Positions 265 to 30,913 of a DNA stretch of 64,000 nucleotides are shown here, piece by piece. Every line of letters begins with the position of its first letter. The first letter of the stretch is position 1. This DNA is from an uncultured Chitinophagaceae bacterium (GTDB lineage: Bacteria; Bacteroidota; Bacteroidia; Chitinophagales; Chitinophagaceae): NCBI GenBank assembly GCA_903883945.1, contig CAISCV010000051.1:1-64000 (forward strand). Direction: 5' to 3'. The position numbers and the translations under genes are program-made. The notes under the pieces were generated by a model. The model made no database searches and was not told the DNA's origin. It saw only the letters and a program-made list of their open reading frames with translations.

Positions 265-1437
265 TTATTTTACAAACTGAGAAACTGCTTTCTCACCATT
301 GTTTTCTATAGTAACAATGTAACTTCCTTTTTTAAGTTTGCTTACATCAACTGTTGTTTGAGAAGCACCTGTTTGTAAGTTAGAAACAGAAACTGTTTTA
401 CCAGCAGCATTTACAATTTTAATAGAAGCACCAGCTAAAGCCTGAGCGTGACTTAAAGTAATGTTGTTAACAGCAGGGTTAGGGAATACAGTTAATTTCT
501 TAGAAGAAACAGCAGTATTCAAAACTACGATAGCGCTGTAAGAGAAAGCACCATTTTTGTCAACCATTTTCAAACGATAGTAAGTAGTAGTCGCAGCAGC
601 TGCCGTTTCAAATGAATAGCTGTTCAATCCTTTTGTATTTTTAGCAGTAACTGAACCTACAGTAGAGAAATTCTTTCTGTCTGTGCTAGCTTCAACTACA
701 AATTGTTTTGCGTTGATTTCATTTACAGAAGTCCAATTAAGTTTAGCTGTATTGTTAACGATTGAACCGTTGAAAGACTGTAAAGAAACAGCAAGCGTAA
801 TTGGGTCTCCGTTTACTGATAGATTATGGTACCTGTCATTACCACCGCCAGTTTCAACATAATTTGTTTGAATTTCAAATAATGGATTGTCATTAGCACC
901 TTTAATATTAGAAAAATCCAACACTATTTTATCCATTGGTGTACCTGTAGTATTAGTGAGGTTATAGGTACCAACACCAGTTAAAGTAGTTGTTGCTGCT
1001 GCTGTTCCATTGTCAACATGTGTCAACACCATTCCTGTTGAATCCCATGTTTTACCACCATCTAAGCTGTAAGAAATGGTATTTGTCTTAGACCCTTTGC
1101 TACTTGCAAACTCAGCATATTCAACTACAATATTCTTGTAGCCAGTTGTAGGTAAAGTCCATATAAATGCAGAATAAGGTGTTGCAATCTTCATGTAATT
1201 TGTGGCTCCTTTAGGAGTAACTTGTTGATTGATAGTGTCTGTTGTAGGATAGTTGCCAGTCACTACACTTGCTCCAGCTAAAGATAATGACGCGCCACCA
1301 ATAGTAAAATCGGGAGTAAATAAATCAGTCTGAGCACCTGAAGCTGCATCAAAGCTCCAGAAATACAATAACTTACTAGATTGTGCAGTTGCACCTAAAC
1401 TAATAACTACAAATAAAAGTGTAAATAATTTTCTCAT
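265..1437 (-). CDS. Secreted protein with T9SS type-A C-terminal sorting domain
   Basis: ORF with signal peptide (MRKLFTLLFVVISLGATAQ; start refined from 1458 to 1437). C-terminus KLTVFPNPAVNNITLSH...GSYIVTIENNGEKAVSQFVK is a typical T9SS type-A CTD. Confidence 0.85.
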   Translation of the reverse strand: MRKLFTLLFVVISLGATAQSSKLLYFWSFDAASGAQTDLFTPDFTIGGASLSLAGASVVTGNYPTTDTINQQVTPKGATNYMKIATPYSAFIWTLPTTGYKNIVVEYAEFASSKGSKTNTISYSLDGGKTWDSTGMVLTHVDNGTAAATTTLTGVGTYNLTNTTGTPMDKIVLDFSNIKGANDNPLFEIQTNYVETGGGNDRYHNLSVNGDPITLAVSLQSFNGSIVNNTAKLNWTSVNEINAKQFVVEASTDRKNFSTVGSVTAKNTKGLNSYSFETAAAATTTYYRLKMVDKNGAFSYSAIVVLNTAVSSKKLTVFPNPAVNNITLSHAQALAGASIKIVNAAGKTVSVSNLQTGASQTTVDVSKLKKGSYIVTIENNGEKAVSQFVK

Positions 1438-1841
1438 AATGTTTATTTTTTGCAACATTAAAATTGTCTACACTAAAATAGCTATTGATAACAATTTGAT
1501 AATATTAAGATATTAATAAATGTATTTAAACGAAACCCAATACCGTTAAGGATTTTGGCATATTATTAAGATATGATTTTTAATTAAGGCTTAACAATAT
1601 GATAATATTGATAAAGTATTCAAGCTTAAATAAAGACAAGGATCTTTAGAAATTGTTACAGGATAAATTTAAATGGAATGAACGGTTTAAAAATAAGCAT
1701 AATTAACCCTTTACTTTCATACTACAGTCCAAGATTGAAGCATTATATATAATAGCCCATGTTCTGAATGACCTTTACCTTTATCTTGAAGTTGAAGTGA
1801 GGATGACAGATTAGCTTAAACATTAATACACATAATTGGTA

Positions 1842-2475: not shown

Positions 2476-3510
2476 ATGTTGAATGCAGAAAAAATGAAAG
2501 CCCTCAAGCTTACCATGGATAAGATTGATAAAGACTATGGCAAGGGAAGTGTGATGCTGATGAATGAAAAAAGCAAAGACCCTATTGAAGTAATTTCCAC
2601 AGGATCTATCGGACTGGATGCAGCATTAGGCGTTGGAGGTATACCAAGAGGAAGAGTAGTGGAAATATACGGACCAGAAAGTAGTGGTAAAACCACCTTG
2701 GCAATACACATCATAGCAGAGGCACAAAAGAAAGGGGGTATGTGTGCCATCATAGATGCCGAGCATGCCTTTGATAGTTCTTATGCACAAAAACTAGGAG
2801 TAGACGTAGACAACCTACTTATTTCGCAACCAGATTATGGCGAGCAAGCCCTTGAAATAGCCGACAGGTTGATCTTGTCTGGCGCATTAGATGTAGTTGT
2901 AATAGATTCTGTTGCTGCATTGGTACCCAAAAGTGAGTTGGAAGGTGAAATGGGTGATAGTAAAATGGGCTTGCAAGCACGTTTAATGAGCCAGGCATTA
3001 AGAAAGCTAACAGCTACCATCAATAAGACCAATACCATCTGCATCTTCATCAATCAGTTAAGAGAAAAGATAGGCGTTATGTTTGGCAATCCCGAAACAA
3101 CAACCGGTGGTAATGCCCTTAAATTCTATGCCTCTATCCGTTTGGATATCAGACGATCTGCACAGATAAAAGATGGTGATGAAGCTATTGGTAATCACGT
3201 AAAAGTTAAGGTTGTTAAAAACAAAGTAGCACCGCCATTCCGGGCAGCGGAGTTCGATATTATGTTTGGAGAAGGTATCAGTAAGCTTGGAGAAATAATA
3301 GATATGGGCGTAGAGCTTGGCTTTGTAAACAAAAGTGGTAGCTGGTTTAGCTACGAAACTACTAAGTTGGGTCAGGGTAGAGATGCCGTAAAAAACTTAT
3401 TGAGAGATAACCCAGAACTAGCAAACGAGATAGAAGGAAAGATTAGAGCAAAAATATTCGAATCTCAAACTGCAGGCTTAGGTATCAAAGAGACAGAAAC
3501 TGAAGAATAA
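2476..3510 (+). CDS. recA: Recombinase RecA
   Basis: GPESSGKTT Walker [13 protein letters not shown], and [46 protein letters not shown] are diagnostic for RecA. Confidence 0.98.
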
Positions 3511-11849: not shown

Positions 11850-11916
11850 TAACAATTTGATAATAAAACAATAACATTGAACCTATAAAAACTTGCAGTA
11901 CGCCGATTATTTTTGC
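11850..11916 (+). promoter_or_regulatory. Regulated promoter: three 11-bp direct repeats plus Bacteroidota -7 box
   Basis: TAACAATTTGA|TAATAAAACAA|TAACATTGAAC (11850-11882), then CGCCGATTATTTTTGC (11901-11916) containing TATTTTTG (= TAnnTTTG). Near-identical block at 16414-16480. Confidence 0.75.
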
Positions 11917-11948: not shown

Positions 11949-14891
11949 ATGCTTAAAGGCTTAATTGCGATTGCTACCTCTTCGATTATTATAACATTAG
12001 GAACGCCGAACTATAAACTAATAACTTCCAGATTGGTAAACGATAAGGAAAAATGGACACTTGCCAATGCTGTTTTCACCAAACTGCCCATAGGCAATAT
12101 AGATACGACTCCAAAGTTATTAGCGGAAGGAAAAGGAAAGTCGGTGGGGGTGTCGGGTAAAATTACCGGAAAGATAATGAATGCTAAGACAGGAGAACCC
12201 ATTTATGCAGCAAATATTACTATCAAAAGTAGCGTAGTAACCAGAAATACTAGGTCCGACTATAATGGTATGTATACCGTTAGTGAATTACCTGAAGGAA
12301 TCTACACCATTAATGTTTCTCACTTAACGTATGGCAAAAAAACACTAGAAGATATTAAAATAGCTAATAAAGATGTTACAACCCAGGATATTGTATTACA
12401 AGAAACGAAGGGAAAAAACCTAGATGAAGTTGTTGTTACCACAAAAGGGGTAGGGAGAGTAAAGGAGAGTGTTGCTGCTATATTGATTCAACAGAAGAAT
12501 GCAGCAAGTGTAAGTGATGGAATTTCTGCTGAAGCCATTAAGCGTACACCAGATAAAACCACATCCGACATTATGAAACGGGTGAGTGGAGCAAGTATTC
12601 AAGAAGATAAGTTTGTAATAATCAGAGGGTTGAACGATAGGTATAATGCGGCTTTCATTAATAATGCACCATTGCCAAGTTCTGAAAGTGATCGGAAGGC
12701 ATTTTCATTTGATGTTTTTCCCGCTAATATGTTGGACAACTTGATTATAGTTAAAACAGCTACGCCTGATATGAATGCAGATTTTGCAGGCGGTACCATA
12801 TATATTAATACCAAGGATATTCCGGCTAAAAGCTTTCAAAGTGTCTCTTTTGGTGTAGGATATAACACGGTTGCAACTTTTAAAGACCGCAAATATGAGA
12901 AGGGTGGTAAATCGGATTGGATTGGTTTAGATGATGGAACACGTAAATTATCTCTTCCTTCAACAGATATAAAACAGTTAACTTCAGAAGAGAAGGCAAA
13001 TCTTGGTAAGACACTTCCTAATAATTGGGCTGCCCAATCTGGTAATACTCCTCTTAATTATAATTTTCAATATGTAAAAGGATTGAACATTCAAAGACAT
13101 AAAAAAGATTTTTTAGGTGTACTATTAGCTGCTACCTATAATAAAACTTACAACTTGAGAGAAGGTGAGAAAAAATCTATTACAGGAATTGACCCAACTT
13201 ATGTAGATGAGACCACTGAAAAAGTGTACACTTCTCAGGTCCTAGGTGGCTTCATGGGAAATGTATCTTTGAAATTGAATGAAAATAATAAATTTAGTTT
13301 TAAAAACTTAATAAGTGTCAATAGTGATGACAGGGTTTTTGATAGATTTTTTCAAGGAACCTTTTCAAAAGCTCAATGGTTTACTTCCAATACAATTTTA
13401 TCCTCACAATTGTCTGGAGAACATTTTTGGAAACAACCCAAAATTAAAATAAACTGGACAGGTGGTTACACTTCTTCTGATAGAGAAATCCCTTATTTAA
13501 GGAGAACAAGTTATTCATTAGCTTATGGCGATTCTACCAAAGTACAACAAAATGTTGGTCCTGAATATGGTATTTCTAATTATGATGCTAGTGGGACTAT
13601 TTTTACCTCTGCTACAAAAGAAAATATAAGAAGTTTTGGAGCAGATATATTGCGTAAATTCAGTATTGATAATTACAATTCTGTACAAGTAAAAGCAGGT
13701 GCTTATTTTCAAGGGAGGAATAGAGATTTTACAGCAAGAAATTTATCTATTGTTCAAATAGGTTCTACTTATCAGTTTGATAGACCTTTACTAAAATATC
13801 ATGACGATTCAGTATTCGCTCCACAGAATTTTGGGGTACAAGTAAATGGCAAAAATGGTTTTGGTTTGAATGAAGATTTTAAAGGAGACAATACGTACAG
13901 TGCTTCTTCTACATTGGCTGCCTATTATTTGATGTTAGATGCAAGAATTCTTAAGTTTATTAGAATTAATGGTGGAATACGAACAGAGAAATTCAATCAA
14001 AGACTTAACACTGCTAAATCTGGAATTGACACTGTAAATACGACTATAATTGATAATCTTCCATCTGTAAACCTTATTTTTTCACTTAATTCAAAACAGA
14101 ATTTACGGTTCTCATATTCACAAACCCTTAATAGACCTGAATATAGAGAGTTAGCTCCTTTTTTATTCTATGATTATGTGACTAAACTTTCTATTGGTGG
14201 TAATCTTGCTACAGAAAGAGTGAAAATAGAAAATTATGATTTTAGATATGAGTATTATCCAAGTGGGGGACAACTGCTTTCATTATCCTTATTCCAAAAA
14301 AATATACCTAATCCAATTGAATTGGTAATCACTCCAAATACAGATGCAAAGTATATTAACGCTGTGAATGGCAAAATTAGAGGGGTAGAATGTGAATTTA
14401 GAGCAAATATTGGTTCTACAATTAAGGCAAGTTCTTCTAGTTTCTTATCAAACACTACTTTGTTTGGTAACGCTTCTTTTATTCATTCGGAGGTTTCATT
14501 TGGAAGAGATTCTTTGAAATTTGGCCGCACTCGAACTTTACAAGGTCAATCTCCTTATATCTATAATGCAGGGTTAATGTACCAAGATCAAAAGGGATAT
14601 TCTGGAAGTTTGCAAGTAAACTATTCAGCCCCACGTATATACATTGCAGGAGATATGGATAATCCTGGTATTTTGGAAAATGGAAGAACCGTTATGGATC
14701 TTCAGTTAGCAAAAACATTTGAAAAACAAAATTTAGAACTTAAATTAAATGTAAAAGATATTTTAGCCGATGATTTTTTACGTTTTTATGATATTGATGG
14801 TAACGGAAAATATGATTCAAATAAGGATAGAATATTTCAAAGAGGGACAATGGGAAGGGTTATTTCACTAGGGTTGACTTATAAGTTCTAA
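11949..14891 (+). CDS. TonB-dependent receptor with carboxypeptidase-like N-terminal domain
   Basis: GKIMNAKTGEPIYAANITIKSS...; plug region VSGASIQEDKFVIIRGLNDRYNAAFINNAPLPSSESDRKAFSFDVFP...DFAGGTIYINTKD; barrel ending in GLTYKF. Confidence 0.92.
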   Translation: MLKGLIAIATSSIIITLGTPNYKLITSRLVNDKEKWTLANAVFTKLPIGNIDTTPKLLAEGKGKSVGVSGKITGKIMNAKTGEPIYAANITIKSSVVTRNTRSDYNGMYTVSELPEGIYTINVSHLTYGKKTLEDIKIANKDVTTQDIVLQETKGKNLDEVVVTTKGVGRVKESVAAILIQQKNAASVSDGISAEAIKRTPDKTTSDIMKRVSGASIQEDKFVIIRGLNDRYNAAFINNAPLPSSESDRKAFSFDVFPANMLDNLIIVKTATPDMNADFAGGTIYINTKDIPAKSFQSVSFGVGYNTVATFKDRKYEKGGKSDWIGLDDGTRKLSLPSTDIKQLTSEEKANLGKTLPNNWAAQSGNTPLNYNFQYVKGLNIQRHKKDFLGVLLAATYNKTYNLREGEKKSITGIDPTYVDETTEKVYTSQVLGGFMGNVSLKLNENNKFSFKNLISVNSDDRVFDRFFQGTFSKAQWFTSNTILSSQLSGEHFWKQPKIKINWTGGYTSSDREIPYLRRTSYSLAYGDSTKVQQNVGPEYGISNYDASGTIFTSATKENIRSFGADILRKFSIDNYNSVQVKAGAYFQGRNRDFTARNLSIVQIGSTYQFDRPLLKYHDDSVFAPQNFGVQVNGKNGFGLNEDFKGDNTYSASSTLAAYYLMLDARILKFIRINGGIRTEKFNQRLNTAKSGIDTVNTTIIDNLPSVNLIFSLNSKQNLRFSYSQTLNRPEYRELAPFLFYDYVTKLSIGGNLATERVKIENYDFRYEYYPSGGQLLSLSLFQKNIPNPIELVITPNTDAKYINAVNGKIRGVECEFRANIGSTIKASSSSFLSNTTLFGNASFIHSEVSFGRDSLKFGRTRTLQGQSPYIYNAGLMYQDQKGYSGSLQVNYSAPRIYIAGDMDNPGILENGRTVMDLQLAKTFEKQNLELKLNVKDILADDFLRFYDIDGNGKYDSNKDRIFQRGTMGRVISLGLTYKF

Positions 14892-14902
14892 TAATAATAA
14901 AC

Positions 14903-16030
14903 ATGAAGAAGTACTTGGTTATTTGCATTTTGTTTACTTCATTGTTCCTTTTACAATCGAATGTGAAAAGAGTAACGAGTTCAAATTTCCCCCCAACAAA
15001 TTGTACAGGCGCACCAAATGCATATACCTGTCAGTTTTGTCATAGTTCTTATTCTGCAAACAAAACTGGTGGAGGAATTAGCCTTTTAGGTATTCCTTCC
15101 ACTTTTACTGTTGGTCAATCTTATCCTTTTAGTATCAATATTAAACACTTTGCCAGTGATAGAAAAAAATTTGGATATGATGTAGCTGCATTGGATGCAT
15201 TGGGCAATCCTTATGGAACATTTAGTACAGTTAATTCGGCTTCTACTATAAATGCCGGTGAACTAACTTCTCATCTTCCGCTTGATTTAGCAGCTACCAA
15301 TCAGACTACCATCAGTGGGTTTACATGGAATGCCCCTGCAACAGCCCCAACTAGTAACCAACTACCCATCACCTTTTATTTTTGTGGGAATGCTTGTAAT
15401 GGCGATGGGACTGCCAAAGGAGATTATGTATATAATGATTCTGTAGCTACTACCATTGGGGCTTTGCCAATTGAACTAAATCATTTTAGTGTTACCAGAA
15501 AACCAGATACAGAGGTTCAATTAGATTGGTCTTATGGCAATGAAGTGATGCTTAGTAGTTTTATTATTCAAAAGAAGTTAAATGAAGGAGTGTTTTTAGA
15601 TTTGGATACCATACTAGTAAAGCTTGCATCAGTATCTTCAAATAAATATACTTATTTAGACAAAACATCAGGTAGCAATGCAACGGTTTCTTACCGTATT
15701 AAGTATATTGAAAAGGATGGGTCAACAAGTTTTAGTGGTATAAAAGTAGTAGCTCCCGCTACGCTTATTGTTGGTGTTAAGATGTACCCAAATCCAATTG
15801 CAAAAAATAGCAACATGACCTTAGTCTTTTCAGCTAATCAATACAAGTCTTGTTCTATTGCGATAGTAGGTGTTACCGGTAATTTGTTATGGAAAAGAAA
15901 ACAAGAAGTAGTTGCTGGAAATAATGTTTTTTCTATTCCTATGGGGAATAGTATTCCTGAAGGATCTTATTTTTTAATACTTTCATCCGAACATTTTATA
16001 CTATATAAACAGGCTTTTATCATTAGGTGA
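14903..16030 (+). CDS. Secreted T9SS type-A protein with CxxCH motif (choice-of-anchor V-like domain)
   Basis: TGAPNAYTCQFCHSSY (CxxCH) near the N-terminus, Reeler-like domain (FTVGQSYPFSINI), C-terminal VKMYPNPIAKNSNM...GSYFLIL sorting domain. Confidence 0.75.
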   Translation: MKKYLVICILFTSLFLLQSNVKRVTSSNFPPTNCTGAPNAYTCQFCHSSYSANKTGGGISLLGIPSTFTVGQSYPFSINIKHFASDRKKFGYDVAALDALGNPYGTFSTVNSASTINAGELTSHLPLDLAATNQTTISGFTWNAPATAPTSNQLPITFYFCGNACNGDGTAKGDYVYNDSVATTIGALPIELNHFSVTRKPDTEVQLDWSYGNEVMLSSFIIQKKLNEGVFLDLDTILVKLASVSSNKYTYLDKTSGSNATVSYRIKYIEKDGSTSFSGIKVVAPATLIVGVKMYPNPIAKNSNMTLVFSANQYKSCSIAIVGVTGNLLWKRKQEVVAGNNVFSIPMGNSIPEGSYFLILSSEHFILYKQAFIIR

Positions 16031-16413: not shown

Positions 16414-16480
16414 TAACAATTTCATAATAAAACGATAACATTACAATTCCGCTATTCACCGATTCGCCGATTATTTTTGC
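16414..16480 (+). promoter_or_regulatory. Regulated promoter, second copy of the 11-bp direct-repeat/-7 block
   Basis: TAACAATTTCA|TAATAAAACGA|TAACATTACAA (16414-16446) and CGCCGATTATTTTTGC (16465-16480); offset of 51 bp between elements is identical to the 11850 copy. Confidence 0.75.
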
Positions 16481-16505
16481 ACCTCAAACTAAATTATTAA
16501 TTAAA

Positions 16506-19500
16506 ATGAAAAGAAATTTTCTTGGCTTCGTGCTTTTGCTAGCAGCAATCAGCAGCAACGCACAGGTGCAGTTCCTGAAATCGGTTAACTACCGTGGAGC
16601 ATTTGCACCGTCTCCCACAGAAATGTGGACAAATGGTTGGGCTAACTGGGATCCTAATTCCACAGTTTACCCTAGTACTGATGTCACTATTAGTGGTAAC
16701 ATTACCTCTAATACCAAGTGGACAAAAAATCACACTTACCTTTTACAAGGTTTAGTGTACGTTACTAATGGTGCTACCTTAACAATTGAGGCAGGTACTG
16801 TTGTAAGAGGTGATGCAACTATTGCAAACACCTCTTTAGTGGTTACTCGTGGTGCTAAATTGTATGCAGTAGGTACTGCAAATGCACCCATTGTTTTCAC
16901 TTCAAACAAGGCTGCGGGTAGTCGTAACCCAGGCGATTGGGGTGGAATCATTTTGTTAGGTAAAGCTCCTATTAATGTAAAAGGTACTAAAAAAGCTTCA
17001 ACAGTTCCTGGTGCGGATTCTGTTACTATTGCTGACGGTACGAACTACATTGAAGGTATCGTCGAAAATGACAATACCCTTTATGGTGGTACTGATGCAA
17101 ATGACAACTCTGGTACTTTGAAGTATGTACGTTGCGAATTTGGTGGTTACGTTTTCCAGCCTAACAAAGAAATCAATGGGATTACTTTTGGTGGTGTTGG
17201 TCGTGGAACTACTATTGATTATGTACAATCTTCTTATGCTAATGATGACGCTTTTGAGTGGTTTGGTGGTACAGTAAACTGTTCACACCTTATCTCTTAC
17301 AGAGGTGTTGATGATGAATTTGATACTGATAACGGCTTTAGCGGAACTGTACAGTTTTGTTTAGGCGTTCGTGATCCACAAATTGGTGATTTAACTTGGA
17401 ACGTTTCTGGTGGTTCTACTTCAGAAGGTTTTGAATCAGATAATGATGCTAATGGATCTGCAAATACGCCATTAACAAGTGCTATTTTCAGTAACGTAAC
17501 ATTTGTAGGCCCATTGCGTGGTCATAACACTACTGCTTATGCTTATAATCCTGATAATCTTTATCCAGCATTTAGAAGAGTTGCACGTATCCGTCGTAAT
17601 TCAAGATTGCGAGTTATTAACTGTATCATGACAGATTACCCTACTGGTTTATTTGTGGATGATAATGGAACTGTTCCTACTACTCAAGCTGCTTCTAATG
17701 GTAGCATGGTTTTCGCTAACAACATTATCGCAGGTGTACTTCCTGGTCACGTACTTGAATGGGGTGGTTTTGCAAATCAATATGATTTAACTAAAATCCA
17801 AACTTGGGTTGATAAATCTAAGTATTCAAGTGCTTATACTTGGTTTGCTGCAAATAATAACGATTCAGTTGCAACTACTACCGATATATTAACAACTCCT
17901 TACAGCTATACAAGTCCTGATTACCGTCCAAAAGCTGGTTCTATCGCAGTTTCTGGTGCTGATTTTACCAATTCTTTAATTGCTCCTTATGTAATTGCAG
18001 AAGCAACAAATAAGAATTTAGTAAAGAAAGTAGATTACCGTGGTGCCTTCGCTCCTGCTCCTACAGCAATGTGGACTACAGGTTGGGCTAACTGGGATCC
18101 TAACAATACTGTTTATCCTGCAACGGATGTTAATGTTAGTGGTAATATTACTTCTAATACAACTTGGACTAAAAACCATACGTATAAATTACAAGGATTG
18201 GTTTATGTAACTAACGGTGCTACTTTAACTATTGAAGCAGGTACTGTAATCCGTGGTGATGCAACAATTGCAAACACTTCTTTGGTTATTACAAGAGGTG
18301 CTAAATTAAATGCAGTTGGTACTGTTTTGAATCCAATTGTATTCACTTCAAACAAGGCTGTTGGTCAACGTAATCCTGGTGATTGGGGTGGTATCATTTT
18401 GTTAGGACAAGCTCCTATCAATGTAAAAGGTACTAAAAAAGCTTCAACAGTTCCTGGTGCTGATTCTGTAACTATTGCTGATGGTACTAACTACATCGAA
18501 GGTATCGTCGAAAATGATAATACGCTTTATGGTGGTACTGATGCAAATGATAATTCTGGTACATTGAAATATGTACGTTGCGAATATGGTGGATACGTGT
18601 TCCAACCAAACAAAGAAATCAATGGGATAACTTTTGGTGGTGTTGGTCGTGGAACTACTATCGATTATGTACAATCTTCTTATGCTAATGATGACGCTTT
18701 CGAATGGTTTGGTGGTACAGTAAACTGTTCACACTTAATTTCTTACAGAGGTGTTGATGATGAATTTGATACTGATAATGGTTATTCTGGTACTTGCCAA
18801 TTTTTATTGGGTGTTCGTGATCCACAAATTGGTGATTTAACTTGGAACGTTTCTGGTGGTTCAACTTCAGAAGGGTTTGAGTCTGACAATGATGCTAATG
18901 GTTCTGCAAATACACCATTAACAAGTGCTTTATTTACAAACGTAACTTTTGTAGGTCCATTACGTGGAAATAACACAACAGCTTATGCTTACAATCCTGA
19001 CAACCTTTATCCTGCTTTCAGAAGAAGTGCACGTATCCGTCGTAACTCAAGATTAAGAGTTCTTAACTGCGTAATGATGGATTACCCTACTGGTTTATTT
19101 GTTGATGATAATGGAACAGTTCCTACTACTCAAGCTGCAAGTGATGGTTCTATGCGTTTTAGCAATAACCTAATGGCAGGTAACCTTCCTGGTCATGTAC
19201 TAGAGTGGGGTGGTTTTGCTAATCAATATGATTTAACAAAAATTCAAACTTGGGTAGATAAAACCAAATATGCAAGTGCTTATGCATGGTTTGCAGCTTG
19301 TAATAATGATTCATTGGTATCTACAACAGGCGTATTGACTAGACCTTACGATTACACTAATCCTGATTATCGTCCGGCTACTACTTCTCAAGCATTAGTA
19401 AATTACAACTTTACTGATACTGTGTTTAATGGTTTGTTGAGTACAACTACTTATGACTTGTTTGTTGCAACTGGTAACAGTTCTGTAGTTTCAAGTGATA

Positions 19501-21518
19501 TTACTTACAATGATGTATCGTTGAATGGTGGTACTTTAACTATTAATTCAGGTGTGACTTTGACTGTTAACGGTAACCTTTACTTGAATGCGGGTTCTAT
19601 CATCAACAATGGTACAATTGTTTATGGTAATGGTTTAACTGTAAACTCTGGTAATACAGTAAACTTAAGTGGTTCTTTTAGTAATGATATCATCAATAAT
19701 GGTACTATTAACTTAACTGCAAACACAACTTTCAGTGGTGGTTTAACAAACAACGGTATCATTACAGGTGCTGGTACTTATTTAACTGCTAAGAAATTAA
19801 CTTTGGCTGGTACAAGCGTAAACTTAGCTGGTAACGGTTCAATCGGTGTTTTAGAAATCAATACTACTGGTACTATTTCTAACACTGGTTCTGATTCATT
19901 GAAAGTAGTTAACAAATTAATCTTGACTAAAGGTACTTTGGCATCTAACGGTAAATTAACTATCAAATCTACTTCATTGGATAGTACTGCTATCGTTGAT
20001 GTAGTTGCTAATGGTAGTGTTTCTGGAAATGTAGTAGCTGAGCGTTTCATTCCTGCTGGTTTCCGTGCGTATCGCGATTTAACGCCAGGTGTTAACACCA
20101 ATGGTGGTACAATCTTTACAAACTGGCAAGAAGGTGGTAACAAAACTGCTGGTTACGGTGTGTTCATTACAGGTGCTGCTGGTACTGCTGGTACTGCAGA
20201 TGCTACTTCTGGTTGCGATTATACTGGTGGTGGTGCAGCTTCTGCCTATACTTATAGAAGCTCAACTTGGAATACGTATAGCAAAGCAGCTAATTATACT
20301 AAGTCTGGTGCATTAGCAAATTTAGATTACCACTACGGTTACCGTGTGTTGGTAAGAGGAGATAGAGGTTACAATATTGCACAAGCTGGTTTGTCACCAT
20401 ATTTCATGGTAAACAAAACTACTATAAGAGCTACAGGTACTTTGGTTACGGGTAATGTTACTTATAGTCCAGTTACGCACTTGAATACTGCTTTAAACAG
20501 CTTTAGCATGATTGGTAATCCTTATTTATGTCCAATAAATTGGGATGACATTTACAATGATGCAGCAAATGCAACTGCTAATTTAACATCTACTTACTAT
20601 TTTATTACTCGTAATGATTCTACAAATCATGATGGTCCAACAGGAGCACTAAGTTTCTATGGTACTTATGATGCATTATTTGGTTCTGTAGCAGATGGTA
20701 TGATTTCTATCATTCAACCAGGACAAGCAATCTTTGTTCAAAACAATGGTTTAGCTGCAACAGGTTCATTAACAATCAAGGAATCACACAAACTACCTAG
20801 TCAGTCAAGAAAACAATATGGTATTTTTGGTGCATCTGCTTCAAATAAACTCTATATTTCTTTATTGAAGAATACAGATTTAGGTTACCAAACAGCTGAT
20901 GCTATTAAGGTAGTTGAAACGAATTCTTTGGCTGCTAACCGTGGTGTAAACAAATTTGTTAATGCTACAGACAACCTTTCTATCATAGAGGGTAATAAAG
21001 ATTATGCAATAGCGGGTTATAAAAAATTAACTGTTGCTGATACTATCAATCTTTCTGTTGATCAACTTACAGCAGGTACTTCTTACCAATTAAAAGTTAA
21101 TGCTATTAGTTTTAAAGCTGAAGGTCTTACGCCTTATTTGTTAGATAAAACAAACAATACTACAACTGAATTGAAGGGTGATAATACAAAAGTAACTTTT
21201 GTTGCTACCAATGCAGATGCTAAGCGTTTTGCAATTGTGTTTGGTTCAAAAGCTGCACCTTTAGCTCTAGCTAAAGTAAGTGTATACCCTAATCCTTTGG
21301 TAGGTAACACGTTGCACCTTTCTACTGGCAATCTTGCTGCAGGAAAATACAGTGTAGTAGTTTACAATGTATTGGGTGGAAAAGTATTTACTTCTCAAAT
21401 CAACGGAGCAACAGGTATCCAGAGTTTAAAAGTAGGTTCTTTATCTGCAGGTAACTACAATGTAGTGGTAAGCAACAACAGTAAAGTGGTTTACAGTACT
21501 GTTTTACAAGTTAAATAA
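16506..21518 (+). CDS. Giant secreted surface protein: two tandem 482-aa beta-helix-like domains, repeat-rich middle, T9SS type-A CTD
   Basis: Signal peptide MKRNFLGFVLLLAAISSNAQ. LTIEAGTVxRGDATIANTSL...NPGDWGGIILLG...NDNTLYGGTDANDNSGTLKYVRCE occurs twice. Ends VSVYPNPLVGNTLHLSTGNL...YSTVLQVK. Confidence 0.9.
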   Translation: MKRNFLGFVLLLAAISSNAQVQFLKSVNYRGAFAPSPTEMWTNGWANWDPNSTVYPSTDVTISGNITSNTKWTKNHTYLLQGLVYVTNGATLTIEAGTVVRGDATIANTSLVVTRGAKLYAVGTANAPIVFTSNKAAGSRNPGDWGGIILLGKAPINVKGTKKASTVPGADSVTIADGTNYIEGIVENDNTLYGGTDANDNSGTLKYVRCEFGGYVFQPNKEINGITFGGVGRGTTIDYVQSSYANDDAFEWFGGTVNCSHLISYRGVDDEFDTDNGFSGTVQFCLGVRDPQIGDLTWNVSGGSTSEGFESDNDANGSANTPLTSAIFSNVTFVGPLRGHNTTAYAYNPDNLYPAFRRVARIRRNSRLRVINCIMTDYPTGLFVDDNGTVPTTQAASNGSMVFANNIIAGVLPGHVLEWGGFANQYDLTKIQTWVDKSKYSSAYTWFAANNNDSVATTTDILTTPYSYTSPDYRPKAGSIAVSGADFTNSLIAPYVIAEATNKNLVKKVDYRGAFAPAPTAMWTTGWANWDPNNTVYPATDVNVSGNITSNTTWTKNHTYKLQGLVYVTNGATLTIEAGTVIRGDATIANTSLVITRGAKLNAVGTVLNPIVFTSNKAVGQRNPGDWGGIILLGQAPINVKGTKKASTVPGADSVTIADGTNYIEGIVENDNTLYGGTDANDNSGTLKYVRCEYGGYVFQPNKEINGITFGGVGRGTTIDYVQSSYANDDAFEWFGGTVNCSHLISYRGVDDEFDTDNGYSGTCQFLLGVRDPQIGDLTWNVSGGSTSEGFESDNDANGSANTPLTSALFTNVTFVGPLRGNNTTAYAYNPDNLYPAFRRSARIRRNSRLRVLNCVMMDYPTGLFVDDNGTVPTTQAASDGSMRFSNNLMAGNLPGHVLEWGGFANQYDLTKIQTWVDKTKYASAYAWFAACNNDSLVSTTGVLTRPYDYTNPDYRPATTSQALVNYNFTDTVFNGLLSTTTYDLFVATGNSSVVSSDITYNDVSLNGGTLTINSGVTLTVNGNLYLNAGSIINNGTIVYGNGLTVNSGNTVNLSGSFSNDIINNGTINLTANTTFSGGLTNNGIITGAGTYLTAKKLTLAGTSVNLAGNGSIGVLEINTTGTISNTGSDSLKVVNKLILTKGTLASNGKLTIKSTSLDSTAIVDVVANGSVSGNVVAERFIPAGFRAYRDLTPGVNTNGGTIFTNWQEGGNKTAGYGVFITGAAGTAGTADATSGCDYTGGGAASAYTYRSSTWNTYSKAANYTKSGALANLDYHYGYRVLVRGDRGYNIAQAGLSPYFMVNKTTIRATGTLVTGNVTYSPVTHLNTALNSFSMIGNPYLCPINWDDIYNDAANATANLTSTYYFITRNDSTNHDGPTGALSFYGTYDALFGSVADGMISIIQPGQAIFVQNNGLAATGSLTIKESHKLPSQSRKQYGIFGASASNKLYISLLKNTDLGYQTADAIKVVETNSLAANRGVNKFVNATDNLSIIEGNKDYAIAGYKKLTVADTINLSVDQLTAGTSYQLKVNAISFKAEGLTPYLLDKTNNTTTELKGDNTKVTFVATNADAKRFAIVFGSKAAPLALAKVSVYPNPLVGNTLHLSTGNLAAGKYSVVVYNVLGGKVFTSQINGATGIQSLKVGSLSAGNYNVVVSNNSKVVYSTVLQVK
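16572..19440 (+). repeat. Internal tandem duplication, unit 1446 bp (482 codons)
   Basis: TACCGTGG at 16590 and 18036 (offset 1446). The antisense ORFs at 16998 and 18444 have the same offset. Confidence 0.95.
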
Positions 21519-21978: not shown

Positions 21979-23112
21979 ATGAAAATATTAATTACAAAAT
22001 TTACATTGCCTTTTACAATCTGCATTGCTTTGGTTCTGTTTTGTACCACCACCATCCTTGCACGAAATGCTATCAAAAGCACCCCTTTAACAGCACTAAA
22101 GAGCGCGTCTGTAAAAACGCCAAGTTCTCTTAAAAGTCCTATGGCAGCCAACCTTCTAAACATTAATTTATTAAAAAACACCACATCCGGATATGGCAAA
22201 GCAGATCAGGTTACTCTCATTGTAAACCCAGCTTTAGCCTCCAATGGGGTAGGTTCTAATAAGTTGCTGAATGGTGCAGATAATATAGCCTTCATAGAAG
22301 GTAGCAAAGTGTTGGCTAATGATGGCTATAAAACAGTATCACCTACCGATACCATTTCTATTTCCATCTCCGAGCTTACTCCCGGAACGGCATATCAATT
22401 GCAAATATTATCTGCTAAGTTTAAGGTTAGTGGTATAGTTCCGATGATTTTCGATAGAATCACTAAATCGGTTACTCAATTTAGTACTGATACTACTTTA
22501 ATTAATTTTACGCCAACAGTTGCCGACACAGCCACTTATCGTAGTCGTTATAAAATTGTATTTGTTTCTAGTTTACCGGTAAGGGAAGTAATGACTTCAG
22601 CCGAAAGTCAAAGCAATGGACAGATAAAAATTAACTGGAATTCTTTTACCGAAACAAACCTTGTTTCCTATACAATCGAAAAATCGGTTAATGGTAAAGA
22701 ATACAATACACTAGCTACTGTTAGAGCAAAAAATACAACTACTGCCAGCTATTCATATACAGATGCAAATGCTACAAAGCAAGCTTCATACTATAGGATT
22801 AAAGCATTAAGTGCCGACGGTACTTATATTTATAGTAATGTAGTTTTTGTTGCTTCAAAAAGTTCTTTTACTAGCGTATATCCCAATCCACTAGTGGGAA
22901 ATACGTTGCACCTTGCCACAAACAATCTTATCGATGGCAAGTATATAGTTAATGTTTATAGCACTTTGGGTACAAAAGTGTTTACAACCACTATTGATGG
23001 CAAATCGAACAAATACGAATTGAATTTAGGCAAACTAGCTACCGGTAATTACAATTTGGTAATCAGGTCGGAGGGTGCAATTGTTTACAATACATCTTTG
23101 CAAGTAAAATAA
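21979..23112 (+). CDS. Secreted protein with T9SS type-A CTD; paralogous to the C-terminal module of the 16506-21518 product
   Basis: NLLNINLLKNTTSGYGKADQVTLIVNP...GADNIAFIEGSKVLANDGYK parallels the giant protein's C-terminal region; ends VYPNPLVGNTLHLATNNL...YNTSLQVK. Confidence 0.85.
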   Translation: MKILITKFTLPFTICIALVLFCTTTILARNAIKSTPLTALKSASVKTPSSLKSPMAANLLNINLLKNTTSGYGKADQVTLIVNPALASNGVGSNKLLNGADNIAFIEGSKVLANDGYKTVSPTDTISISISELTPGTAYQLQILSAKFKVSGIVPMIFDRITKSVTQFSTDTTLINFTPTVADTATYRSRYKIVFVSSLPVREVMTSAESQSNGQIKINWNSFTETNLVSYTIEKSVNGKEYNTLATVRAKNTTTASYSYTDANATKQASYYRIKALSADGTYIYSNVVFVASKSSFTSVYPNPLVGNTLHLATNNLIDGKYIVNVYSTLGTKVFTTTIDGKSNKYELNLGKLATGNYNLVIRSEGAIVYNTSLQVK

Positions 23113-23127
23113 TATAATGTAAATCTA

Positions 23128-23175
23128 ATTGGGGTTGATGGTTACAAATTGTAACGGTCAATCCCAATTTCTAAA
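23128..23175 (+). terminator. Stem-loop between the two T9SS genes
   Basis: ATTGGGGTTGA ... TCAATCCCAAT with an inner GGTTACAA/TTGTAAC pairing. Confidence 0.55.
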
Positions 23176-23184
23176 TCAATTAAT

Positions 23185-23847
23185 ATGCAAAATATAATTA
23201 CTAAATTATTAAGAACAACATTTCTGATAGTTGTTTTAGTTTCATCAACAACACTTCTAAGGGCTCAAAACCCCGGTGGTCCTTTAGATGGTGGCGGCAG
23301 CGATACAGCTGTAGTACCTGTAAAAACAATCATCCTTTCAGTATATCAAGATAATAATAACGTTACTATTACTTGGAATACGATTGGTGAGACACAACTA
23401 GCGTCATTTACAATCGAAAAATCAGAAAATGGTAAAACCTTTTCTGCATTTTACACCATAGTAGCTAAGAATCAATCTGCTGCATCTTATCAAACTTTCG
23501 ATAAGACTACCACAGCCGCTTACTATCGCATAAAAGCAACAGACATTAAAGGAAGTTATACCTACAGTGCTATCAAATATTTTGGAGGAAATAAAAGTTT
23601 AAGCATTAAAGTTTTTCCAAACCCATTAGTAGGTAATACGTTACATATTTCAACCGGTAATTTAACTAGTGGAACTTATCAATTAGTTGTAATTAATGGT
23701 CTTGGTCAAAAATGTTTTTCTTCCCTAATAGAAGGAGCCTCAACAACCACCGATGTAAAAATTGGAAACTTATCTTCCGGAAACTATACTGTTATTGTTT
23801 TCTCTGGAAATACAATTGTTGATACAAAGACACTACTTGTTAAATAG
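23185..23847 (+). CDS. Small secreted protein with fibronectin-like segment and T9SS type-A CTD
   Basis: SFTIEKSENGKTFSAFYTIVAKNQSAASYQTFDKTTTAAYYRIKATD...IKVFPNPLVGNTLHISTGNL...VDTKTLLVK. Confidence 0.85.
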   Translation: MQNIITKLLRTTFLIVVLVSSTTLLRAQNPGGPLDGGGSDTAVVPVKTIILSVYQDNNNVTITWNTIGETQLASFTIEKSENGKTFSAFYTIVAKNQSAASYQTFDKTTTAAYYRIKATDIKGSYTYSAIKYFGGNKSLSIKVFPNPLVGNTLHISTGNLTSGTYQLVVINGLGQKCFSSLIEGASTTTDVKIGNLSSGNYTVIVFSGNTIVDTKTLLVK

Positions 23848-23998: not shown

Positions 23999-24550
23999 AT
24001 GATAAAAAAATGGTCTAGTCTCAGCCCTGCCTTACAATTCATCATAAAATCTGTGTTGATTGTTGGCACCTGGCGTTTGATGTATATTTTTATTTTACAA
24101 CCAATTAGATTTCCCGATAAGCTATTAACGAAATTTATTGGGGAAGGCACTACCATCTTCATTAATATCTTTGGAAGTAATAGCCTTCCCAAAGTATATT
24201 GTATAGATAGTAAATTTATTGGCGAAGTAGTATTGATTCGTGGAACACACGCAATCCTTCACATTGGGGACGCTTGTAATGGACTAGAATTGATGCTTAT
24301 CTATGCAGGAGTCATTGCTTTGTTGCCAGGAAATAAGAAAAGAAAGACATCCTATATAGTTGTTGGCCTTTTGCTTCTTTTAATTGCAAATATGCTTAGA
24401 TGCACAGGTCTTGAATGGGTTTATGAATTCTATCGTCCATTATTCGAAACAACCCATCACTATATTTTTACGCTTGTTATGTATATTTTTATTTTTATTG
24501 GGTGGACTCTCTACATAAATAAAATAAAAAAATCGAATCCGACAGGGTAG
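23999..24550 (+). CDS. Exosortase/archaeosortase family protein
   Basis: Multi-pass membrane protein with conserved C/R/H: GDACNGLELMLIYAGVIALLPG (Cys), NMLRCTGLEWVY (Arg), TTHHYIFTLVMYIFIFIGW (His). Confidence 0.88.
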   Translation: MIKKWSSLSPALQFIIKSVLIVGTWRLMYIFILQPIRFPDKLLTKFIGEGTTIFINIFGSNSLPKVYCIDSKFIGEVVLIRGTHAILHIGDACNGLELMLIYAGVIALLPGNKKRKTSYIVVGLLLLLIANMLRCTGLEWVYEFYRPLFETTHHYIFTLVMYIFIFIGWTLYINKIKKSNPTG

Positions 24551-29629: not shown

Positions 29630-29761
29630 TTAATTATTTGGTATTCTCACTGGGCACATACATTGTTTATCGTGTTTAGATTTCGAAAAAACACTGCAAG
29701 AAACCGAAACAACTGTGACAACTAACAATAAAATAATCATTCGGTTTAATTGCTTAATCAT
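29630..29761 (-). CDS. Small lipoprotein (43 aa), not in the supplied ORF track
   Basis: Translation MIKQLNRMIILLLVVTVVSVSCSVFSKSKHDKQCMCPVRIPNN* has a short hydrophobic signal ending in a VSVSC lipobox-like cysteine. Confidence 0.7.
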   Translation of the reverse strand: MIKQLNRMIILLLVVTVVSVSCSVFSKSKHDKQCMCPVRIPNN

Positions 29762-29827
29762 ACTAATTTTAAATTTGAACGAAAAATAGACTTATAAGCT
29801 CACTGTAACATTAGCAAGAATCGTTTT

Positions 29828-30913
29828 ATGCAAAATTTTAACAATAAAAGAATTCTAATAGCTCCTTTAGATTGGGGGCTTGGTCATATAACCAGATGTA
29901 TCTCAATCATCAGATTTTTCTTAGACAATGGTTTTTCGGTAATTGTTGCATCCAATTCCGAACAAAAAGCCCTTTTACAAAAAGAATTTATAAATGTTGA
30001 ATTTATTGAACTTATTGGGTATGAAATTGCATACAGTAAGCACAAAAATTGGTTCCCATTAAAACTAATTGCTCAATTGCCAAAGATTACCTCACGTATT
30101 TATTCGGAACATCGTTGGTTGCAAAAAACAATTGATGACTTTAAGATAGATGTAGTTATCAGCGATAATCGTTATGGTCTATTTACATCCAAAGTTCCTT
30201 GTATTTTTATTACCCATCAGCTTACTATTAAAGCTCCTTTTGACTGGCTCGAACAGTTGTTACAAATCATCAACTATAGCTATATCAACCGTTTTACCCA
30301 ATGTTGGGTACCAGATTATGCAGGAGAAAAAAATATTGCAGGGGTGTTGTCTCACCCTATAAAGTTACCCAAAACTCCAGTGCATTACATCGGGCTATTG
30401 GCAAGGTTTAAGAAAGAAGATAAAGCAGTTATTAGTTATCAATGTTGCATTATTCTTTCGGGCCCAGAGCCACAACGAACCCTGTTGGAGGAGATTATTC
30501 TACAGCAATTGCCTGCCCTTAAAGGAAACTTTCTTTTGGTAAGGGGGAAACTGAATGCTCCAACGTTGGATATTTCCCTCCCAAATGTTACTGTAAACAA
30601 TTATTTAAATGGTATGGAGTTGCAAGAAGCCATTAATACCTCCGCCTTTGTAATCACGCGTAGCGGATATACTTCTGTAATGGAACTGTTGGCCTTACAA
30701 AAGAAATCAATTCTAATTCCTACACCTGGGCAAACGGAACAAGAATACTTAGGCAAACAATTGATGCACCATCATTTGGCTTATTGTGTGGATCAGGACG
30801 ATTTCAATTTAACTGATGCGCTTATCATCGCCAAGGAGTTTACTTACCATTTGCCATCACCTGAAAATAGCACATTGAATAGTGTTTTGGATGGATTACT
30901 TACGACTATTTAG
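29828..30913 (+). CDS. Glycosyltransferase (MurG/GT28-like)
   Basis: RILIAPLDWGLGHITRCISIIRFFL...TRSGYTSVMELLALQKKSILIPTPGQTEQEYLGKQL. Confidence 0.8.
   Translation: MQNFNNKRILIAPLDWGLGHITRCISIIRFFLDNGFSVIVASNSEQKALLQKEFINVEFIELIGYEIAYSKHKNWFPLKLIAQLPKITSRIYSEHRWLQKTIDDFKIDVVISDNRYGLFTSKVPCIFITHQLTIKAPFDWLEQLLQIINYSYINRFTQCWVPDYAGEKNIAGVLSHPIKLPKTPVHYIGLLARFKKEDKAVISYQCCIILSGPEPQRTLLEEIILQQLPALKGNFLLVRGKLNAPTLDISLPNVTVNNYLNGMELQEAINTSAFVITRSGYTSVMELLALQKKSILIPTPGQTEQEYLGKQLMHHHLAYCVDQDDFNLTDALIIAKEFTYHLPSPENSTLNSVLDGLLTTI

Follow-up and report, generated by a model that had tools for sequence, protein, structure and literature searches.

Predicted PHO-box-like repeat arrays upstream of a TonB receptor gene and a giant beta-helix surface protein gene in an uncultured Chitinophagaceae bacterium

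Two promoters of the same design

The DNA considered here, hereafter the window, is a stretch of 64,000 nucleotides from a Chitinophagaceae metagenome-assembled genome of 4.09 Mb. It carries a gene for a TonB-dependent receptor and, downstream of it, a gene for a 1670-aa surface protein, each preceded by its own array of direct repeats. The relevant features are as follows.

11850..11882, + strand: three 11-bp direct repeats, TAACAATTTGA TAATAAAACAA TAACATTGAAC, predicted PhoB operator (PHO-box-like array) of the TonB receptor gene (exact pattern match; 11-bp periodicity upstream of homologues)
11908..11915, + strand: -7 box TATTTTTG (TAnnTTTG), in the 11-bp register of the repeats (pattern match)
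11949..14891, + strand: 980-aa TonB-dependent receptor (CarboxypepD_reg, plug, barrel), homologue of the phoB-adjoining receptor of other Bacteroidota (Pfam, synteny; NCBIfam TIGR01782 below cut-off)
14903..16030, + strand: 375-aa choice-of-anchor V / T9SS-sorted protein, 11 nt past the receptor gene (Pfam, NCBIfam; conserved in genus mates)
16414..16446, + strand: three 11-bp direct repeats, TAACAATTTCA TAATAAAACGA TAACATTACAA, predicted PhoB operator of the giant surface protein gene (pattern match; periodicity; genus mates)
16472..16479, + strand: -7 box TATTTTTG in register with the repeats (pattern match)
16506..21518, + strand: 1670-aa secreted protein composed of two ElpS/FII-like beta-helix domains in tandem, a middle region and, at its C-terminal end, a T9SS sorting domain (Por_Secre_tail; tandem domain homology; AlphaFold model)
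29723..29777, + strand: weaker candidate site, TAACAATAAAA TAATCATTCGG ... TAAATTTG, in register (relaxed pattern, overall no commoner than control)
29828..30913, + strand: PF04101 glycosyltransferase, of the family of Fjoh_0541 in the F. johnsoniae phoBR cluster (Pfam; a relative adjoins phoR-phoB-receptor-helix in the genome L177)

The gene of the 375-aa choice-of-anchor V protein is probably in one operon with the receptor gene. Directly 3' of the giant gene, at 21979-23847, two further T9SS-sorted proteins are encoded, the first of which has part of the giant's C-terminal region, and a weak exosortase-like match (PF09721, just below cut-off) lies at 23999-24550. At the other end, two TAACAATWTGATAATA sites are found at 1489-1607, between genes 265-1458 (-) and 2476-3510 (+), with no TAnnTTTG box within reach.

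A 29-bp repeat block, TAACAATTTSATAATAAAACRATAACATT, has two exact matches in the window, at 11850 and 16414, and none in 100 dinucleotide shuffles. A second block, CGCCGATTATTTTTGC, is matched exactly at 11901 and 16465, the offset between the blocks being 51 bp at both promoters, just as the original prediction had claimed. The linkers that separate them are indeed diverged, with 5 of 22 positions identical (chance level), although they measure 22 bp and not the approximately 18 bp first given. Read in 11-bp units, the first block consists of three direct repeats TAAYANNNNNN spaced by exactly 11 bp (TAACA-N6, TAATA-N6, TAACA-N6), which at 16414 are TAACAATTTCA, TAATAAAACGA and TAACATTACAA. 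The second block includes the -7 box of Bacteroidota, TAnnTTTG, here TATTTTTG. This box falls inside the sixth 11-bp unit counted from the repeats, at 11908-11915 and 16472-16479, and is therefore in register with them. Two repeat-free units lie between the array and the -7 unit at the window promoters; the array abuts the -7 unit in many relatives.

No TTG lies 18-22 bp upstream of the -7 box at either window promoter, in keeping with dependence on an activator. A sigma-specific promoter working without an activator was rejected, as it leaves the 11-bp period unexplained, and sites of the AraC or LytTR type were set aside because their repeat spacings differ from those of the window. From the known position of TAnnTTTG at -12 to -5 (PMC9723704), transcription of the giant gene is predicted to start near 16484-16486.

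Recurrence of the array in the genome and among relatives

In the 4.09-Mb genome, a strict three-repeat pattern has five matches (against 0 for the control): the two window sites, a phoB-like gene and two TonB receptors. The phoB-like gene, which encodes an OmpR-type response regulator, has its match directly upstream and is followed by a histidine kinase gene. The 16-bp core TAACAATTTNATAATA is also present upstream of a divergent receptor/metallophosphoesterase pair (C280), a YncE-like propeller protein (C184) and a DUF5689 T9SS protein (C85), and on C88 a two-unit site, in register, belongs to an Oar-like receptor. Many homologous promoters escape the strict pattern. A relaxed two-repeat pattern showed no enrichment in the same genome (30 matches, and 30 in the control), so that the site at 29723 is only a candidate; among the relaxed matches, only those in register before plausible genes were followed.

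We searched 399 genomes of the order, making no use of gene content, for a pattern whose gap before TAnnTTTG could take any length from 6 to 36 bp. This search recovered 116 distinct sites, compared with 18 matches of the same pattern read backwards. In the window's family, the total length of the site is exactly 44, 55 or 66 bp in 49 of 52 cases, where three of 31 lengths are what chance would give; orthologous loci are non-independent, so quoted probabilities overstate this result. The genes downstream of sites found in this way from the DNA include phoB-like genes (L058, L068, L242), OprO/P porins (L066, L067), beta-helix proteins (L243, L244), metallophosphatase or phosphoesterase genes, a lamin-tail protein and many receptors of the window kind.

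The same periodicity appears upstream of the homologues of the window receptor. In the 250 bp upstream of 88 of them, 153 pairs of TAAY words lie 11 bp apart, compared with 9±3 in shuffles, and further pairs lie at 22 bp (95), 33 bp (42), 44 bp (29) and 55 bp (22), where shuffles give about 7-9 each. Arrays of at least three TAAY units occur in 44 of the 88 regions (0.1 in shuffles), and the 11-bp periodicity far exceeds both the shuffles and the reverse strand. In one genome (G281) a run of six consecutive units extends up to the -7 box. Members of the Flavobacteriales and Bacteroidales carry the array as well; in Chryseobacterium it is rarer. TAAY words are common at 37% G+C, and one might thus see here only chance or ordinary AT-rich promoter sequence. 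We regard this as hardly credible in view of the lack of any shuffle match, the 11-bp periodicity and the excess of sites over control matches in the 399 genomes.

Phylogenetic footprinting, proposed as a check in the original prediction, finds arrays conserved at genus-mate promoters as well as upstream of homologues, the counterparts of each window promoter carrying their own conserved array. The counterpart promoters of genus mates do not show the CGCCGA just 5' of the -7 box, which leaves the repeats, the register and TAnnTTTG as the only elements with phylogenetic conservation. Upstream of phoB, most of the genus keeps TAACAATTTGATAATA or a closely similar sequence (TAACA with a second unit 11 bp away); the distance from the repeats to the -7 box is near-constant there and the linker has diverged. 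The phoB promoter is therefore a third case of the type of conservation seen in the window, but its sites are one base out of register.

The window promoters had originally been described as one duplicated block. Their repeat spacer positions and CGCCGA are near-identical, beyond the genus-wide consensus, as would be expected if a promoter segment had recently been duplicated or gene-converted and the likeness reflected shared descent more than regulation. However, the linker and both flanks are without similarity, the 16-bp core is also present at phoB and C85, and genus mates carry a separate conserved array at each of the two promoters. As the core TAACAATTTGATAATA stands at phoB and most of the genus keeps it there, much of the likeness could be due to the consensus of a shared regulator. 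The sequence likeness itself is clear, and a recent duplication or gene conversion as its origin seems to us rather unlikely; even so, such an event would be compatible with Pho control.

Two side observations came from the related genomes. A second class of 11-bp TAACA arrays, with the unit TAACARSTNNN and a -7 box that in most cases is shifted by one base from the register (56 or 67 bp), occurs in other families of the order (L233-L241, L245), upstream of genes for an FKBP isomerase, PDZ, TonB-C-like and small cysteine-rich secreted proteins, and probably belongs to another OmpR-family regulon. In addition, the record CP034120.1 (L179), labelled Glaciecola amylolytica, has genes and promoters closely like those of Fluviicola (L187) and may be a mislabelled Bacteroidota genome.

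The receptor-helix pair and its putative regulator

The 1670-aa protein ends in a C-terminal sorting domain (PF18962, 28.7 bits for a cut-off of 27), which identifies it as T9SS cargo. Domain homology indicates two domains of about 490 aa, arranged in tandem, in its N-terminal part. An AlphaFold model of the tandem domains is a parallel beta-helix (pTM 0.80, mean pLDDT 71.5) whose structural matches in the PDB are beta-helix tailspikes and pectate lyases; their TM-scores are low, so that the model supports the fold class only. A sequence search of the PDB with the giant protein gave no match. The likeness to FII and ElpS, namely a parallel beta-helix protein with an adjoining TonB receptor, is accordingly one of fold class.

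The pair formed by the receptor and the beta-helix protein is conserved across the phylum. It often adjoins phoB-phoR, from which it is divergently oriented in many named genomes (Chryseobacterium, Kaistella and others), and in L177 a PF04101 glycosyltransferase joins the phoR-phoB-receptor-helix cluster. This gene order is the one published for Fjoh_0541-0546 of F. johnsoniae (PMC8115612). Judged by gene order and family rather than by direct alignment, the window pair would be homologous to Fjoh_0545/0546; its link to ElpS likewise runs through gene order and through the statement that the FII family is reportedly related to a low-phosphate lipoprotein of Caulobacter (PMC8115612). Upon phosphate depletion, the F. 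johnsoniae receptor, FII and glycosyltransferase are induced with log2FC of 8.0, 9.9 and 5.4 (PMC8115612). Caulobacter ElpS is a phosphate-starvation protein linked to extracellular phosphatase activity, and its gene adjoins that of a TonB receptor, CC0171; the receptor is reportedly constitutive and ElpS is induced (PMC2996285).

The best candidate for PhoB is the gene G000:C100:16611-17288, next to a histidine kinase gene. The candidate has a receiver and an OmpR-type domain (PF00072, PF00486), and its neighbour has HisKA and HATPase_c. It is the best match of the PhoB model in the genome (about 219.9 bits, the next reaching 193), and PhoB is in turn its best-scoring family. It lies below the equivalog cut-offs of TIGR02154 (219.9 for 296.2 bits) and of NF053854, the Bacteroides PhoB model (212.4 for 270); only 2 of 14 control genomes pass that of TIGR02154. 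No PstB over the curated cut-off was found in this genome, nor in 12 of 13 genus genomes, the exception being G009. Pho control in the genus may thus run without the usual Pst transporter.

The genome encodes four more OmpR-like regulators, with 144-193 bits to the PhoB model, and the TAACARSTNNN arrays seen in other families stand before a set of genes that are not phosphate genes. One could thus imagine that another OmpR-family response regulator binds the window repeats. Against this, the unit and register of the window match the class found before phoB, porins, phosphoesterases and ElpS-like proteins, an array is present at the phoB-like gene itself, and the receptor-helix pair adjoins phoB-phoR in many genomes. 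We therefore consider a regulator other than PhoB quite improbable, and PhoB the likely regulator of the pair, for which the original prediction had named none.

Direct repeats with an 11-bp period and a position upstream of phosphate-starvation genes and of phoB are two of the marks of a PHO box, and both were found here. We put at roughly 85% the probability that the two window promoters are activator-dependent phosphate-starvation promoters under a PhoB-type regulator. Since the array stands before phosphate-scavenging genes and the regulator gene in many relatives, exhaustion of phosphate most probably turns on the surface protein jointly with its partner receptor. The functional constraint and the co-regulation of the two genes, as originally proposed, are supported by the footprinting, the conserved gene pairing and the phosphate-depletion data of F. 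johnsoniae (PMC8115612).

In the mechanism that we suggest, a PhoB-type regulator would be phosphorylated at low phosphate and would bind the TAAYA repeats head-to-tail, on one face of the DNA. It would then recruit RNA polymerase to the TAnnTTTG box, whole helical turns downstream, without a -33 TTG, and the receptor operon and the T9SS-exported beta-helix protein would be turned on jointly. The pair, which is CC0171/ElpS-like and Fjoh_0545/0546-like, would probably capture phosphorus compounds or support extracellular phosphatases. The binding of PhoB, activation, induction at low phosphate and the role of the pair are what we infer from the repeats, their register and phylogenetic conservation, the content of the regulon, the gene pairing and the site at phoB, all of which are observed in the DNA.

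Wider meaning and comparison with known systems

Bacteroidota play a major part in the recycling of organic phosphorus, and it is through proteomics and mutants that their phosphate-starvation genes are known. It is tempting to suggest, with a little less than even confidence, that the phylum as a whole uses a PHO box in which two to six TAAYA units follow one another at 11 bp, locked in register with TAnnTTTG, and that spacer and register (mostly 0 for Pho, +1 for TAACARSTNNN) separate Pho from the second OmpR-family regulon. If so, Pho regulons could be predicted from DNA alone, in genomes and metagenomes of this phylum, including a genus in which 12 of 13 genomes have no PstB over the cut-off. 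Such a readable operator would suggest the signal to which abundant TonB receptors, and a giant surface protein whose function is unknown, are likely to respond; it would also open helical-phase control of activator-dependent TAnnTTTG promoters to direct testing.

A close relative in gene content is the phoBR cluster of F. johnsoniae (PUSIV, Fjoh_0541-0546; PMC8115612), which shares the glycosyltransferase, OprP, PhoR, PhoB, the TonB receptor and the beta-helix protein FII. There, however, the genes form one cluster and FII is a lipoprotein, whereas here phoB is on another contig and the helix protein is a tandem-domain, T9SS-sorted protein with its own promoter; the PUSIV paper mentions no promoter or PHO box. 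The CC0171-ElpS pair of Caulobacter (PMC2996285) is similar in that a TonB receptor adjoins an extracellular phosphate-starvation protein, related to FII according to PMC8115612. It differs in that ElpS is a T2SS-dependent lipoprotein with which the receptor is reportedly not co-induced (PMC2996285).

On the side of the operator, PhoB of B. fragilis binds the pst promoter, for which no box is given (PMC3547664). We found no paper defining a Bacteroidota PHO box among open-licence papers, and the nearest is the DAP-seq motif TTTAACA of PhoP from Riemerella anatipestifer (PMC9603813). This system is alike in phylum, in its OmpR-family Pho regulator and in the TAACA core, and it too has a site at the regulator's own operon and another at a TonB receptor. 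The motif is there likened to that of ArcA, and the text searched gives no 11-bp repeat period, -7 box register or phosphate-scavenging regulon (PMC9603813). PHO boxes are direct repeats of 11 nt whose core varies by species (PMC4415409), and the layout of the window promoters, 11-bp repeats with an in-register -7 box, is that of such a box, the operator of PhoB-type response regulators; we thus describe it as a predicted operator. The PHO box of E. coli PhoB consists of two 11-nt direct repeat units with a CTGTCAT core (PMC4415409), and it resembles the present arrays in its 11-bp period, its place upstream of the core promoter, the site at phoB and its phosphate-acquisition targets. In contrast, the core is here TAAYA and not TGTCA, the arrays comprise two to six units, and a TAnnTTTG -7 box takes the place of the -10 element, with a register that is held over 44, 55 or 66 bp.
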